Source: Rhodospirillales bacterium (GTDB taxonomy: Bacteria; Pseudomonadota; Alphaproteobacteria; Rhodospirillales; Casp-alpha2). Taken from it: a stretch of DNA of 5,696 bases. This document shows positions 1 to 5,696 of the stretch, in pieces. Every line of letters begins with the position of its first letter. Position 1 is the first letter of the stretch. The position numbers and the translations under genes are program-made. Below the pieces are notes generated by a model. It worked only from the letters and a program-made list of their open reading frames with translations. It was not told the DNA's origin and made no database searches. The DNA is taken from positions 1 through 5,696 of the forward strand of contig JABJOR010000350.1 in the NCBI GenBank assembly GCA_018664265.1. Reading direction: 5' to 3'.

Positions 1-92
1 CCCTTCAAGGCGAAGCACTGTTCTTTTGCAACAAGCGGCAAGACGCGCACCAACAACTGGACCTGCTTGAAATACTCACTGTTGCGGTCCAT
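1..92 (-). CDS. abiEii: AbiEii-family nucleotidyltransferase toxin, N-terminal fragment (runs off the left edge)
   Basis: Only the first 30 codons are in the window. The protein begins MDRNSEYFKQVQLLVRVLPL and the last visible residues are CFALK plus a partial Gly codon. This is the usual approach to the FALKGG nucleotidyltransferase motif of AbiEii-type (type IV toxin-antitoxin, DUF1814/NTase) toxins. The ATG is preceded by a strong GGAGG (complement of 99-103) 6 bases upstream, which fixes the start. The gene overlaps the end of abiEi by 17 bases in another frame, implying translational coupling. In this family the toxin is a nucleotidyltransferase that blocks growth and can abort phage infection. 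Recognition rests on a short N-terminus plus the position behind AbiEi. It cannot be seen whether the gene is complete beyond the edge. Confidence 0.8.
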   Translation of the reverse strand, partial: MDRNSEYFKQVQLLVRVLPLVAKEQCFALK

Positions 93-867
93 ATAGCGCC
101 TCCGGCACGGTTATCTGGTAGGCCTTGTCTAATCGACCACCTTTGGCGAGCATCCGTTTTCCCTTACCCAGATCGAAATCTTCAGGGTTAAGTTTGTTAC
201 GCCACTGATGCTGCTGACGGTCGGTGAGGAAGAAGAAAAGCCGTTTTACTTTAATGCTTGATATCTTTTGCAGGAGCTTCTCCAAGCGTCGCGGTGACAG
301 GGTTGTCAGTCCCTGCATGAGTAGATCAGCGTGCTCGAAAGAAATTTTAGCAGGCACGTCCAGCAAAACTTCGAATAATGCACGCTCTGGCGAAGACATT
401 GTTATGCGATCCCCACCATCTGACCAGGGTATTTTGATCGTAAAATCCGACATAGTATCTGTTACGTTTTTTCCTGTGAGCCGGGTGTTGTTGTGGTAAT
501 AAAAAATTATGCCCGGCATCAACTTATTAAGCCATGTAGGCAAGATATCAGAGCCGTATAGATAGACATTTTTTTGCTCTGACAATGACAAGTAATGCGC
601 TTGCCCCTGGAGAGATAACGCACTGAGCCCACCAACAGTGAGGTCCCGCCCCATACGTTGGAGAGAACAAACAGCGCCCTCCCATGTGAGTTTCGTTTCC
701 GGGCGTTTGTAAACACCATGGCTGAGCGATATGAGTTGCTGGCTCTTCACCAAATTATCGAGGCTATGGCGTGCCACCCCCTGCTCCATAAGCCAACCTC
801 TGGTAGCCACAAGCCCGTGCGGCACCAGCGTTATTAGATGTGAACGTGTTTTGACATTTATCGGCAT
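76..867 (-). CDS. abiEi: AbiEi-family antitoxin / transcriptional repressor of a type IV toxin-antitoxin system
   Basis: The protein has 263 residues, a normal length for the family. Residues about 12-60 (HGLVATRGWLMEQGV, then SHGVYKRP) form the N-terminal winged helix-turn-helix typical of AbiEi. A middle region with SLSALS-like and YLYG segments and a basic C-terminal region (about 195-263, with RLEKLLQ and KVKRLFFFLTDR) match the antitoxin domain layout. Known members repress their own operon by binding inverted repeats in the promoter. They also neutralise the AbiEii toxin without forming a stable complex with it. The ATG at 867 is the only reasonable start; a weak GGAAA lies about 11 bases upstream. 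The toxin gene follows with a 17-base overlap. Two matching dyads (888-906 and 963-981) flank the likely promoter. The gene is transcribed away from the replication and transfer genes, as an independent cargo module. Confidence 0.9.
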   Translation of the reverse strand: MPINVKTRSHLITLVPHGLVATRGWLMEQGVARHSLDNLVKSQQLISLSHGVYKRPETKLTWEGAVCSLQRMGRDLTVGGLSALSLQGQAHYLSLSEQKNVYLYGSDILPTWLNKLMPGIIFYYHNNTRLTGKNVTDTMSDFTIKIPWSDGGDRITMSSPERALFEVLLDVPAKISFEHADLLMQGLTTLSPRRLEKLLQKISSIKVKRLFFFLTDRQQHQWRNKLNPEDFDLGKGKRMLAKGGRLDKAYQITVPEALYGPQQ

Positions 868-1187: not shown

Positions 1188-1265
1188 TACGCTCAAAAAT
1201 TAACAAACTTTTTGCAATCAATAGATCATTATCGCGCCTTTTCACCCTATATACGAGAGGCAAAT

Positions 1266-1811
1266 ATGAACATTCAGAATTACTCCCTAACAACCCCCTC
1301 GCAAATCGCCTGGGCATACCTTCAAAGAAACCGAAATTACCAAAAAGATGTGTGTTGTCACATGACGAAGAAACATACCAATGTAGGAAGCAACTCTTTC
1401 CCCTGCATTCAACAAGCAAAATCCGACTTACGGGCTCGAAAATGGGGATTGCTTACTTTTGCCAATCCCAGGCAAGACACACCACCGCTCTGGCACCCGG
1501 ATATGCGAGATACGACTATCCCTGCTGAAACGACAGATACGGGCAAGGCACCACTCATTTCAATGCTTCGCAACGTCGATACCGTTGTGCAGAGTTTATG
1601 CCTGCTTGATGAAAGGCAATGTTTGAAGATTACATCGAACACTTCAGAAGTTCAGCTAATATTTCCACCTGGAACCACTCTCGACGAACATTCTAACGTG
1701 AGTCTCAACCTATCCTTTGACCTGGATCTTCCGAGCCAGATTAAGAAAGTAAAAACCTTGTGGGATATCTCTCACGGGAAAGCAAAAAAAATGTCTGCCA
1801 TCACTTCATAA
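1266..1811 (+). CDS. DUF2285-type ICE/plasmid regulator, zero-frame N-terminal part (frameshifted)
   Basis: The zero frame gives 181 residues and stops at TAA 1809-1811. The chosen ATG has GAGG 5 bases upstream; an upstream TTG at 1212 would add 18 residues but has no such support. Residues about 9-25 (PSQIAWAYLQRNRNYQKDV) and 56-76 (ARKWGLLTFANP, then PPLWHPD) match the N-terminal transcriptional-regulator-like domain (DUF6499 type) found in front of DUF2285. Residues about 108-160 (SLCLLDERQCLKI, VQLIFPPGT) are the beginning of DUF2285. The frame leaves the family similarity at an A8 run (1784-1791). The similarity continues in the +1 frame to 2022, giving about 251 residues when joined. 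DUF2285 is known as a helix-turn-helix variant controlling conjugative elements. The unshifted product would lack the helical C-terminal part. Confidence 0.75.
   Translation: MNIQNYSLTTPSQIAWAYLQRNRNYQKDVCCHMTKKHTNVGSNSFPCIQQAKSDLRARKWGLLTFANPRQDTPPLWHPDMRDTTIPAETTDTGKAPLISMLRNVDTVVQSLCLLDERQCLKITSNTSEVQLIFPPGTTLDEHSNVSLNLSFDLDLPSQIKKVKTLWDISHGKAKKMSAITS
1784..1791 (+). other. A8 slippery run joining the two DUF2285 frames (programmed +1 shift, transcriptional slippage or indel)
   Basis: In the zero frame the ribosome reads GCA AAA AAA ATG. A lysine tRNA on the second AAA can re-pair perfectly one base forward, after which TGT CTG CCA continues into the DUF2285 helices. Loss of one A in the transcript or gene has the same effect. 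The two frames are open together only from 1753 to 1808, and this run lies in the middle. The sequence does not decide between a real regulatory slip, a mutation and a homopolymer sequencing error. Confidence 0.6.
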
Positions 1812-1824
1812 GCATCGTGAATTA

Positions 1825-2022
1825 TTGATCGCATTGGATGGCTCTCTTAGAGGAAAAAGTTTGCGACAAATCGCCCTTGATCTCTACCCTCCCGAACATG
1901 TTGCCTCAGACTGGTTTAACAACAGCGCCCTGAAGAACCGTGTACGGCGACGCGTAGAACGTGGCCGTTATTTCATGAATGGTGGTTATAAGACGTTACT
2001 TGGTTTCAGTCCTAATCAGTAG
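1825..2022 (+). CDS. DUF2285 C-terminal part, read by +1 frameshift from the upstream frame
   Basis: This frame is open from 1753 to the TAG at 2020-2022. It encodes LHKHRELLIALDGS, then GKSLRQIALDLYP, then LKNRVRRRVERGRYFMNGGY. That is the typical end of DUF2285: the variant helix-turn-helix, the arginine-rich helix and the closing GGY segment. The first plausible initiation codons are a TTG at 1825, without a ribosome binding site, and an ATG near 1975, inside the domain. Independent translation is therefore unlikely, and the segment belongs to the gene beginning at 1266. The coordinates given are those of the ORF from the TTG. Confidence 0.65.
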   Translation: MIALDGSLRGKSLRQIALDLYPPEHVASDWFNNSALKNRVRRRVERGRYFMNGGYKTLLGFSPNQ

Positions 2023-2029
2023 CCCGTAA

Positions 2030-2065
2030 GAGTGCCGTTTTTGATGCAGGCCATAAACGGCACTC
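2030..2065. terminator. Perfect 11-bp stem-loop after the DUF2285 gene, terminator-like but without a T-run
   Basis: GAGTGCCGTTT (2030-2040) and AAACGGCACTC (2055-2065) pair perfectly around a 14-base loop, 7 bases after the DUF2285 stop codon. Position and stem strength suit a terminator. No T-run follows on either strand, however, so it may instead be an operator for the HTH-repA operon or a transcript-end stabiliser. Confidence 0.45.
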
Positions 2066-2093
2066 CCCAAAACAACCCACAAAGTCTTTACTC

Positions 2094-2120
2094 GTCATCA
2101 ACTGACATGAGCTGACAGGA
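2094..2120 (+). repeat. Three degenerate GACATGA-like repeats at 10-bp spacing before the HTH-repA operon
   Basis: GTCATCA (2094), GACATGA (2104) and GACAGGA (2114) start exactly 10 bp apart, immediately before the HTH gene. They resemble units of the longer 10-bp array before virB2 (3529-3598). The last unit also contains the AGGA ribosome binding site, so part of the match may have another cause. Confidence 0.35.
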
Positions 2121-2130
2121 AAAGACTGCA

Positions 2131-2334
2131 ATGGAGAAGATTAATTATCTAAACCGCGTCAAGGCGGCTGAATATCTCGGTTTAAGTTCAAAAACCCTTG
2201 ATCGATTGAGGATTTCAGGAGGTGGCCCACGGTATTGGAAAGCAGGATCACGCGTTATGTATGACCAGCGTGATCTCGATGCCTGGGTGGACGAACGCAA
2301 ACGCAGTTCGACTTCAGAAATCGTGAAGAATTAA
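2131..2334 (+). CDS. Small excisionase/MerR-like helix-turn-helix DNA-binding protein
   Basis: The protein has 67 residues and is almost entirely one HTH_17-type (AlpA/excisionase-like) winged-helix domain. The first helices are VKAAEYLGLSSKTLDRLR (residues 10-27). A GGGPRYWKAGSRVMYDQRDLDAWV segment (about 31-54) forms the wing and last helix, and a short basic tail ends the protein. Such proteins act as transcription regulators or recombination directionality factors on mobile elements, and a small HTH gene often sits directly before RPA-type repA. AGGA lies 10 bases before the ATG. The stop codon TAA shares its last A with the repA ATG, so both genes are on one transcript and repA translation is probably coupled. 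Control of repA is a reasonable guess; a role in excision cannot be excluded. Confidence 0.85.
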   Translation: MEKINYLNRVKAAEYLGLSSKTLDRLRISGGGPRYWKAGSRVMYDQRDLDAWVDERKRSSTSEIVKN

Positions 2335-3176
2335 TGCCTCAAGGCCCCCCATCAGAACGCAAACAACTCGAACTGTTTTCCTGCACCCCTGAACCATCTG
2401 GCATTCGAGATTACCAAGACTTGATGGCGTTCCCGTTCTTTTCACTGGCAAAGGGGCGTCGTGTAAAGCCCCTGATCTATGATCGCAATGATGTGGCCAT
2501 CAAGGTCGAGGCCGTACCGGAATACGGCATGGCGACGATCTGGGATGCTGATTTGTTAATCTGGGCGGCCAGTCAAATCATGGATGCACGAAACCGTGGC
2601 GCACCAACTTCTCGACTGTTGCGGTTCATGCCGCATCAGTTCCTGCGCTTTGCAAATCGTCCTACCGGGAAACTGGGATATGAGCGTCTTCGCGCAGCAC
2701 TCGACCGATTACAATCGACCACCATCCAGACCAATATCCGCAGCGTTGATCCTGATACCACCCCTGCCCGAAAGGCCAGGCGACTACACCGTTTCAGTTG
2801 GATTAACGAATGGAGTGAGTTGACCATCGCCGGGGGATATACCCGAGGCATGGAGATCGTCCTGCCCGACTGGTTCTACCAAGGTGTCATCAACGAGAAC
2901 TGGGTGCTGGCGATTGATCCAGCCTACTTCGACTTAACGGGCGGCATCGAGCGTTGGCTCTACCGCCTGGCCCGCAAACACGGTGGTCGCAGCAAAAACG
3001 GCTGGGGGTTCAGCTTTAAGGTTCTGTATGAAAAAAGCGGAAGCCTTGCCCGGTTTTCTGATTTCGCGTTTGATTTGCGGCGACTTGCACATAAGCAGAG
3101 TCTGCCGGGTTATCAGCTATCCCTCTCCATGGATGCCAAGGGTAATGAATGCCTTCAGATCATGTGGATCGCCTAG
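2334..3176 (+). CDS. repA: Replication initiator protein A (RPA family)
   Basis: The 280-residue protein is recognisable over its whole length as the RPA replication initiator family. Motifs in order are QLELF (11-15), DLMAFPFFSLAK (about 29-40), GMATIWDADLLIWAASQI (about 65-82), LRAALDRLQSTTIQTNIR (about 119-136) and FDLTGGIERWLYRLARKHGG (about 198-217). The last is DFAFDLRRLAHKQSLPGYQL (about 242-261). These initiators bind iterons at the plasmid origin and recruit the host replication machinery. Direct repeats and DnaA boxes begin about 100 bases after the stop codon, which fits a cis-acting origin. The ATG overlaps the stop of the HTH gene as TAATG, so expression probably depends on translation of that gene. 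No truncation is seen. Confidence 0.93.
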   Translation: MPQGPPSERKQLELFSCTPEPSGIRDYQDLMAFPFFSLAKGRRVKPLIYDRNDVAIKVEAVPEYGMATIWDADLLIWAASQIMDARNRGAPTSRLLRFMPHQFLRFANRPTGKLGYERLRAALDRLQSTTIQTNIRSVDPDTTPARKARRLHRFSWINEWSELTIAGGYTRGMEIVLPDWFYQGVINENWVLAIDPAYFDLTGGIERWLYRLARKHGGRSKNGWGFSFKVLYEKSGSLARFSDFAFDLRRLAHKQSLPGYQLSLSMDAKGNECLQIMWIA

Positions 3177-3321: not shown

Positions 3322-3387
3322 TTCGTACTATCAGGCGCAAGGATTCGTACTATCAGGCGCATTTGTTCGTACTATCAGGCGTACAGT
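3322..3387 (+). repeat. Three 22-bp iterons, RepA binding sites
   Basis: The identical 16-mer TTCGTACTATCAGGCG occurs at 3322, 3344 and 3366, giving a period of exactly 22 bp, about two helical turns, so all copies face the same side of the helix. The first two copies also share the following C and A. Iterons directly beside repA are the normal binding sites of plasmid initiators. Binding by this RepA is inference. Confidence 0.9.
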
Positions 3388-3707: not shown

Positions 3708-4043
3708 ATGATACAACTGCTTAAAAATTTTCGGAGTAAAGATGGTCTGACAGCCATGGCTATTGCAGCCGCCATACTTCTTGCGCCGGAGGTTGTTCAC
3801 GCCGCAGCAAACAGTGACGAGTGGGTAAAACCTGCTACGGGACTCATTGATGCCTTGCGTTCCGGTTTAATGCAAATAGGCGCGGTCGTAATTGGTCTTG
3901 TTATAATTGGCCGTGGAATTTACATCGCTTCAACGGGCAATCCGGATATCGGGAAACTTGCCATGGTGATTTTTGGCGGTGTTTTAATTATGGCTGGCCC
4001 TAAATCAATGGCTCTGCTGCTCGAAATTGCTCAAGCCTCTTAA
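3708..4043 (+). CDS. virB2: VirB2/TrbC-family conjugative pilin precursor
   Basis: The 111-residue protein is the major subunit of the type IV secretion pilus. A basic start (MIQLLKNFRSK) and a hydrophobic stretch end at VHA, giving a likely signal peptidase site after residue 32 and a mature pilin of about 79 residues, normal for the family. Two hydrophobic helices follow (about 53-74 and 84-105), joined by a short polar loop with STGNPD. GAGGA lies 7 bases before the ATG. The gene opens the operon virB2-virB3-virB4, with virB3 starting 13 bases after its stop. The absence of a trbB-like ATPase gene upstream favours a VirB-type over a Trb-type order, although the rest of the operon is not visible. 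The name could equally be trbC. Confidence 0.88.
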   Translation: MIQLLKNFRSKDGLTAMAIAAAILLAPEVVHAAANSDEWVKPATGLIDALRSGLMQIGAVVIGLVIIGRGIYIASTGNPDIGKLAMVIFGGVLIMAGPKSMALLLEIAQAS

Positions 4044-4056
4044 TGTGGTCGAACTA

Positions 4057-4380
4057 ATGAAAGCAGAAAGCTACATATTCACAGGCCTTCACAAGCCATT
4101 AACAGTCTTTGGATTGCCGCCATTATTATTGGCGCTATCCGGGGCAGCGCTTGGTGTTAGCTTTGCGTTGCTGATCATTCTTGATCTGACGTTCCTTGCC
4201 TTACCAGTTTCTATATTTCTATTTATCGTCATTGTTGGATTTTTTGCTCGCAAGACCAGCCAGGACCATCATTTTGTGAATTTGCTTGCTGTGCCTCCTC
4301 GCTTTTGGCGCGGTCGGAAAGCTCGCACACTCATTGTCGGCATTCAGCCTGAAAAGAAGGGCAAGAAGAATGTGGAATGA
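4057..4380 (+). CDS. virB3: VirB3/TrbD-family type IV secretion inner-membrane protein
   Basis: From the ATG at 4057 the protein has 107 residues, the usual VirB3 size. It starts with the typical FTGLHKPLTVFGLPP segment (residues 8-22). Two membrane helices follow (about 17-38 and 40-63), then a cytoplasmic tail with FARKTSQDHHFVN and a strongly basic end. VirB3 helps anchor VirB4 and assemble the pilus at the inner membrane. An upstream TTG at 4027 would extend it by 10 residues and overlap virB2, but the ATG places the family motif at the expected distance from the N-terminus. No strong ribosome binding site is present, so translation may be coupled to virB2. The stop codon overlaps the start of virB4 by 11 bases. 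Confidence 0.87.
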   Translation: MKAESYIFTGLHKPLTVFGLPPLLLALSGAALGVSFALLIILDLTFLALPVSIFLFIVIVGFFARKTSQDHHFVNLLAVPPRFWRGRKARTLIVGIQPEKKGKKNVE

Positions 4381-5696
4381 GCTTCTTATGACAACACTGG
4401 CCGCATCAACGGCAGGAGCACTGATTAATCCTGCGGCCCGTAATTTCATGCTTGGCAGTGTCGAGCACGACTGGCTGGCCGGAGAACTGGACCTTGATCA
4501 GATTGAGCCAGACAATCACACGGTTCATTTAAAATCCGGAGCTATATTTCGGGCCTTTAAACTGCAAGGCGTAAGCTACGATGCCAAAGAGCGTATCGAG
4601 CAAGACGCGATGTTAAAGGTTCGCTCCAGCCTGTTTCATTATATAGGCGAGTTGGGTTGTTCCATACGTGTTTTTGGCATCAAACGTCTACGTGATATCA
4701 GCTTTGATGCTGAGTGGCCTTCAAAAACATTGAAAGAAATTGGTGATGCAGAGCGCAGCCTGTTTCAGTCGAGCTATTATATTGACTGGTATCTACTGGT
4801 TTCCAGCTCATCAGTTAGCTCGGTAATTGAAGCTGATAAGAAAATTATGTCGATGCTTGGTGACTACAAGCCTGAGCGATTAGAAAGGCCAAAAGATAAA
4901 AATGCCGTCTGTCCATTAACTGGATTTATGAATTTTCTGGTTTGTGGCGAGCTGCGCAATGATCTCCTTGCCGTTTCTGAAAACATTTCAGGGAATATTC
5001 CCGGCAGTGATCTCGGCATTGATAATGAAAGCGGGATCATCAAAACCTTCACGCCTACATGCAAGCTAAGCCAGGTTATCGCAATACGCACTTGGCCGGA
5101 GGTTGTAAATGGCAAAATACTCTCGGACATTCTAACCATACCAGGCGAATTGGAAGTTTCGCAAATTTGTGTTCCCTGGGATCGGGACGCTGCCAAAACA
5201 TTGCTTGGCCGTAAAGAGAATGAACAGCGTAACCGTTTCTTTGGCAATTCAACCCTTGCCAATGAGTGCAAAGCAACACGGCAGCTTCTCTCAGAAGGCA
5301 ATACAACGCTGTTTCATACCCAATTGCAGATTATTGTCCGGGCAGCCAATCAAGAAGAGCTGAACAGTATTATCCATAAGGTTTGCGATATCTTAGGGCG
5401 GCTTCGTATCGCTCATAATGTGGAGACCGCAGGAGCGCCCGTTTGCTGGTTTAACCGTTTGCCAACAGGTGTCGGCAAGATCAATGGGGCGAGTGGTCTG
5501 CTGCGCCCCTTGACCCTGCGCAATGATAATATTGCAGCTCTTTGGTCATTTCAGCATTCACCCGTGGGTATGACATCATCGCCGTATGGTGATCTTCCTA
5601 TCCGTAACTTCCTTACGCCTTCTGGGCAAGCTTATGCGTTTCAATTTCATGTGAAGGCCAAAAAAACAAGTATTGGTAACTATCTGGTGTTTGCAC
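4370..5696 (+). CDS. virB4: VirB4/TrbE-family type IV secretion ATPase, N-terminal part (runs off the right edge)
   Basis: The frame is open from the ATG at 4370 to the window end, giving 442 residues without a stop. It is the largest gene here. It shows the CagE/TrbE/VirB N-terminal domain, including CWFNRLPTG (about 355-363), GLLRPLTL (about 375-382) and NFLTPSGQAYAFQFHV (about 412-427), and ends GNYLVFA. In VirB4 proteins this is followed at once by the Walker A P-loop, so the ATPase half lies just outside; the length before it agrees with the family. VirB4 powers pilus assembly and substrate transfer at the inner membrane. A GAAGG-like site precedes the ATG, which overlaps virB3 by 11 bases. 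A second ATG at 4388 is a possible alternative start. No frameshift is seen. Confidence 0.92.
   Translation, partial: MWNELLMTTLAASTAGALINPAARNFMLGSVEHDWLAGELDLDQIEPDNHTVHLKSGAIFRAFKLQGVSYDAKERIEQDAMLKVRSSLFHYIGELGCSIRVFGIKRLRDISFDAEWPSKTLKEIGDAERSLFQSSYYIDWYLLVSSSSVSSVIEADKKIMSMLGDYKPERLERPKDKNAVCPLTGFMNFLVCGELRNDLLAVSENISGNIPGSDLGIDNESGIIKTFTPTCKLSQVIAIRTWPEVVNGKILSDILTIPGELEVSQICVPWDRDAAKTLLGRKENEQRNRFFGNSTLANECKATRQLLSEGNTTLFHTQLQIIVRAANQEELNSIIHKVCDILGRLRIAHNVETAGAPVCWFNRLPTGVGKINGASGLLRPLTLRNDNIAALWSFQHSPVGMTSSPYGDLPIRNFLTPSGQAYAFQFHVKAKKTSIGNYLVFA

Follow-up and report, generated by a model that had tools for sequence, protein, structure and literature searches.

The closest described system is FseA (Msi172-Msi171), the excision activator of the conjugative element ICEMlSymR7A, in which a DUF6499-middle-DUF2285 order of domains is spread over two overlapping frames that have to be joined by a +1 shift. 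In the accessible part of its description (PMC10359603), the frameshift is placed beside a WGL motif at the end of DUF6499, a +1 site is reported for about 61% of 4709 FseA homologues, and FseA is stated to bind a pair of inverted hexamers separated by 16 bp (in relatives, 15 or 16 bp) and to activate rdfS. While the +1 frameshift of FseA at WGL is known from this portion of the literature, the break treated here, which lies in the linker ahead of DUF2285 and mostly calls for -1, appears to be new; no description of a linker site or of a -1 form of an FseA-type gene was found in the full-text literature, subscription papers and supplements aside.

A regulator gene in two frames

The window, that is, the whole stretch of 5,696 nt that was analysed, is a contig of an alphaproteobacterial genome (78% complete, 603 contigs) and belongs to a conjugative element in which the gene for a likely excision activator is split in two frames. 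On the + strand, the split DUF6499-DUF2285 regulator is followed by an inverted repeat, an HTH_17 gene, the gene for replication initiator protein A (RPA), 22-nt direct repeats, and TrbC/VirB3/TrbE-like genes (Table 1). The N-half frame carries the motifs of its family, AWAYLQRN (AWEFLRRN-like) and KWGL, and matches DUF6499 (PF20109) with an E of 8e-5, the 23.3 bits being slightly under the cut-off of 23.8; past two lysines, KK (residues 174-175), it contributes MSAITS and nothing more. DUF2285 (PF10074) is matched in the +1 frame with an E of 5e-16. The overlap of the two frames is restricted to positions 1753-1808, and joining the halves needs a +1 shift at the A8 run. Up to 110 nt beyond that run, the sole ATG, GTG or TTG codons of the C frame are TTGs within the domain. 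The first-pass annotation, made from the sequence of the window alone, was right in these respects: the family similarity of the N frame ends at A8 and DUF2285 continues in the +1 frame, the C frame offers no usable start, and it depends on the break whether a protein with the DNA-binding domain arises.

Table 1. Features of the window around the split regulator gene
Feature	Position	Strand	Remarks
AbiEi-type antitoxin gene, complete	76-867	-	type IV toxin-antitoxin; PF11459 E 9e-43, PF17194; divergent from activator
Shine-Dalgarno-like GAGAGG ahead of N half	1255-1260	+	dG -5.8 for ACGAGAGGC
N half: DUF6499 + middle domain, 181 aa	1266-1811	+	family similarity stops at KK, codons 1785-1790
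Open C frame	1753-2022	+	post-shift coding part 1792-2019, DUF2285/RovC DNA-binding domain; stop TAG 2020-2022
A8 run, GCA AAA AAA ATG	1784-1791	+	predicted +1 slip site; also in G001 and G051
Inverted repeat GAGTGCCGTTT-N14-AAACGGCACTC	2030-2065		contains GCCGTT-N16-AACGGC (2034-2061), FseA-box-like geometry
Second imperfect inverted repeat	2083-2127		15-nt arms, 80%; directly ahead of HTH_17 gene
HTH_17 excisionase-like gene	2131-2334	+	likely RDF, predicted target; PF12728 E 5.5e-9
Replication initiator protein A (RPA)	2334-3176	+	neighbour gene; PF10134 E 5e-78
Three 22-nt direct repeats (TTCGTACTATCAGGCG...)	3322-3387		past replication initiator; iteron-like
Conjugation genes	3708-5696	+	TrbC 3708-4043; VirB3/TrbD-like 4057-4380 (under Pfam cut-off); TrbE-like, starting at about 4373 and running off the contig

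By sequence, RovC (6xz5) is the sole relative of solved structure. It is matched colinearly over residues 13-243 of the joined protein with an E of 3e-10, as against 3e-4 and 4e-3 for the separate halves, which together with the domain matches upholds the earlier reading as a DUF2285 regulator resembling FseA and makes the protein a DUF6499-DUF2285 regulator of FseA/RovC type. RovC is also the top fold match of the model of the joined protein (E 1.1e-5), with a TM of just 0.30. In the AlphaFold model (mean pLDDT 63.7, residues 174-195 below 50), K174-K175 may, at low confidence, lie in a coil between the last helix of the middle domain (155-169) and the first helix of DUF2285 (180-194). Judged from its coding sequence, the window gene encodes an FseA/RovC-like protein in two frames, with the break just ahead of the DNA-binding domain.

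The window shares with FseA the order of domains, the two overlapping frames needing +1, and an inverted repeat of similar geometry ahead of an HTH_17-type excisionase gene on a conjugative element. The site of the break is different. Identity with the published WGL site was considered and rejected: the WGL of the window is read through in frame into LTFANP and the middle domain, and 113 codons separate it from the break (residue 62 to 175), which falls immediately before DUF2285. This also disposes of the earlier idea that the msi172/msi171-type site had recurred in another element. Whereas FseA breaks after WGL and the +1 FseA homologues use a TTTCGC-like site (13 WGL-type loci are labelled in the tree described below, many with the context TGGGG..TTTCGC), the window breaks in the linker at a run of eight A's; its un-shifted product retains the middle domain, unlike that of FseA, and, again unlike FseA, it has sister genes needing -1. 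RovC, given as an activator of a type VI secretion system in the accessible text of PMC10359603, differs in function from the window protein, a likely excision activator.

Conservation of the break

Nucleotide alignment of homologous loci and a check for purifying selection on both halves had been proposed along with the first-pass annotation, and both speak for the break. The sequence GCA AAA AAA ATG and the +1 break are identical to those of the window in G001 (L003/L006), a genome of the same genus, and in G051 (L007), from another family of the order, which is more than would be expected by chance. The N half of G001 is 76-77% identical to that of the window (77% by BLAST) and its C half 91%; the C half of G051 is 65% identical. 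The window and G001 align without a gap over 754 nt, and their substitutions at positions 1/2/3 of the N frame go from 30/14/33 upstream of the run to 31/8/3 downstream, so that the phase of the substitutions flips at A8, as a switch of coding frame at that point would predict. The dN/dS ratios (Nei-Gojobori) between window and G001 are 0.365 for the N half and 0.059 for the C half. Sister loci described below gave 0.145 and 0.160 (G037-G178), 0.271 and 0.157 (G006 and the second element of G001), and 0.181 and 0.206 (the two G179 copies) for N and C half, respectively; between G001 and G051 the C half gave 0.213, the N half being saturated, and between window and G051 dS was saturated in both halves. 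The identical DNA read in wrong frames gave 0.54-3.6 (six pairs). The pattern of substitutions thus places both halves under purifying selection, although part of the constraint seen in G001 may be past because its element looks partly decayed, with the replication gene cut.

Relatives with a break in the linker

Searches with the C half covered 100 relatives, 317 genomes of the order, 385 genomes sampled across the class and 398 sampled across the phylum, and an additional one covered 11 genomes of the order of G669. In six other loci the break falls on the two lysine codons used in the window, but joining needs -1: G006 (A7), the second element of G001 (A6), G037 (A6), G178 (A6), and two loci of G179 (A7). 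Five GC-rich loci, all with CGG GGG A, likewise need -1 at the linker (G669, G301, two near-identical ones in G499, and G1055). Compared with G669, the phase of substitutions across the linker shifts clearly in both G499 copies and mildly in G1055; in G301 it is clear upstream of the linker, with few changes downstream. Three more -1 loci (the second locus of G669, G592 and G380) were placed by profile score, their shift point being unpinned. The GC-rich -1 loci are thus L060, L039, L096, L099, L097, L047, L059 and L098, five of them with CGG GGG A; L047, L059 and L098 need -1 at a point that was not pinned.

Altogether, the full-length linker-type loci found number 17 in 13 genomes, and every one is out of frame, three by +1 and 14 by -1. 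Since all 17 are split at the same domain joint, synthesis of the DNA-binding half likely depends on slipping out of frame there. The first-pass annotation had the shift run in the direction of FseA; this stands for the window, G001 and G051, but it fails for the branch, where 14 of 17 loci need -1 at this linker. In a tree of 49 rows, the 14 linker loci included (of 17) form one branch (100/98) without any WGL-split or in-frame gene, within which the three +1 genes make up one branch (100/97) and the -1 genes, eleven in number, another (97/94). Being unrooted, the tree does not show the order in which the sites arose. As read from the genes themselves, the linker branch appears to have changed both its direction of shift (+1 or -1) and its slippery bases, which are A8, A6-A7 or GC-rich, without any full-length in-frame gene being found.

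Outside this branch, 77 loci were read, some of them near-duplicates: 42 are split once, all by +1, one is split twice, 27 are in frame, and for seven no N half was placed (L033, L034, L048, L049, L051, L052, L117). For L051 and L052 the linker profile scored slightly better in a comparison of the C domain alone. L031 is a WGL +1 gene, its label "fused" in the tree being a motif artefact. The locus with two breaks, L109 (G224:C14), has both as +1, at WGL and near the linker, and may represent decay or a second site. All 51 places returned by the order-wide search were read, and the last 17 of them add none to the linker branch. Searches of viral contigs, plasmids and phages gave no match.

A profile of the N half, run against 5.8 billion sequences, returned 32 proteins at E <= 1e-10, that of the window counted, and PF10074 is listed for none of these. 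Seven of them (the window's included) are N halves of the +1 type, ending 5-9 residues beyond KK; for three of these seven the DNA was read. When the joined protein served as query, only three N halves and no joined relative came back. The linker-break branch accounts for such N halves, which are carried in databases as unnamed or hypothetical proteins.

Slip site and mode of frame change

In all nine A-run loci KK is encoded as AAA AAA, that is, 18 of 18 codons are AAA, whereas the remaining lysine codons of these genes comprise 74 AAA and 39 AAG; the chance of this is about 4e-4 if the loci are assumed to be independent, which they are not. The A run at the break is the longest A run of the gene in seven of the nine loci, tied in one and shorter in one. 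A Shine-Dalgarno-like stretch ending 7 nt upstream has a dG of -8 to -10.9 in three of the nine, each a -1 locus; in the remaining six it is less strong, at -3.7 to -6.5. A consistent downstream structure was not found in the nine loci.

An A8 run may by itself be compatible with either ribosomal or transcriptional slippage, to go by the available text of PMC1088944. The halves of the window gene are probably joined by an occasional +1 slip of the ribosome at A8, giving what is likely an FseA-type excision activator. Lysyl-tRNA on AAA would re-pair one base on, AAA AAA A/TG being read as AAA AAA TGT; the majority of ribosomes would produce the protein of 181 residues without the DNA-binding domain, a minority the activator of 251 residues. 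Against a +1 ribosomal slip counts the codon that occupies the A site after the run, AUG, which is neither a slow codon nor a stop. Alternatively, RNA polymerase could drop an A at A8 (or add one at A6-A7) and the altered mRNA be translated normally. Such slippage would fit the conserved homopolymer A runs where the two frames join, and ORFs of IS elements joined in this way have such a run at the joint as well, according to the part of PMC1088944 that is accessible; the same text has A/T runs of about nine selected against in many genomes and eight A's possibly productive in some. The IS cases, however, concern a transposase, as far as that text goes, whereas here a transcription activator is concerned and the runs are of 6-8 A's or GC-rich; the -1 sisters with only six or seven A's, and the eight more with GC-rich sites, are less suited to a slipping polymerase, which makes transcriptional slippage rather unlikely. 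Re-pairing on the ribosome is preferred because the A6-A7 and GC-rich -1 sites across the branch fit it better.

That the C half starts by itself and pairs unjoined with the N half has a parallel in the Azorhizobium homologues rihF1b and rihF1a, which have start and stop codons of their own in the text available from PMC9601964; it is very improbable here because start codons are scarce in the C frame, five of the nine A-run loci having no ATG, GTG or TTG up to 110 nt past KK and the other four offering TTG or GTG only. A plain mutation, a pseudogene or a homopolymer sequencing error, which the first-pass annotation had kept as an alternative, might be suspected since the window comes as a short contig from an incomplete genome in many pieces, and a relative with seven A's and an open frame, named beforehand as the sign of a mutation or error, does exist as a second copy in G001 (L002/L013; G001:C13 near 86.5 kb). 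That copy is truncated in its N half, and none was found full-length. With an identical break in three genomes from two families, the flip in substitution phase at the run and both halves constrained, error or decay was rejected as the main explanation and retains hardly any probability. The truncated copy adjoins an HTH_17 gene of its own and, where the contig ends, a replication gene that is cut.

Predicted downstream circuit and element context

A pair of hexamers of the form GYCGNN-N15/16-NNCGRC lies 11-39 nt past the stop of the activator in all nine A-run loci, with a spacing of 16 in the +1 group and of 15 in the -1 group. This pattern occurs 17 times in 30.6 kb as against 4.2 expected, its letters being taken from these same loci. 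An HTH_17 gene follows in all nine; in the GC-rich loci L039 and L060 none was found within the stretch read. As predicted from the window sequence, the inverted repeat at 2030-2065 would be the binding site through which the 251-residue activator turns on the HTH_17 gene.

The elements around these genes vary. The +1 gene of G051 has a tyrosine integrase directly upstream and Trb genes downstream, while one -1 gene (G001:C23) stands upstream of RPA and F-type conjugation genes; L088 and L092 show a tyrosine integrase and Trb-type setting for a +1 gene and F-type transfer genes (TraK, TraB/TrbI-like, TraC) for a -1 gene. In the window, the iteron-like repeats suggest that the element can replicate. 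The toxin partner of its AbiEi-type antitoxin gene is absent from the window.

Biological meaning

The linker branch supplies natural pairs (+1 at A8 versus -1 at A6) in which the setting of slip direction can be studied. In homopolymer runs, gain or loss of a single base ranks among the most frequent mutations. One base would restore the frame of an A-run gene, yet no full-length gene found is in frame, which is read here as selection for being out of frame; and a sister branch whose break lies elsewhere and mostly runs the other way hints that it is the out-of-frame state, not a particular site, that is selected. A gene held out of frame would yield little of a costly activator, the dose being limited by rare slippage at the homopolymer, and the sister genes appear to achieve the same outcome by -1 slips in the same linker. 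It is thus conceivable, and put forward here tentatively, that selection keeps these activators out of frame and that the break acts as a movable limiter of their dose; as a matter of speculation, the abundant N half could in addition serve as a brake that forms pairs with the scarce full-length activator.
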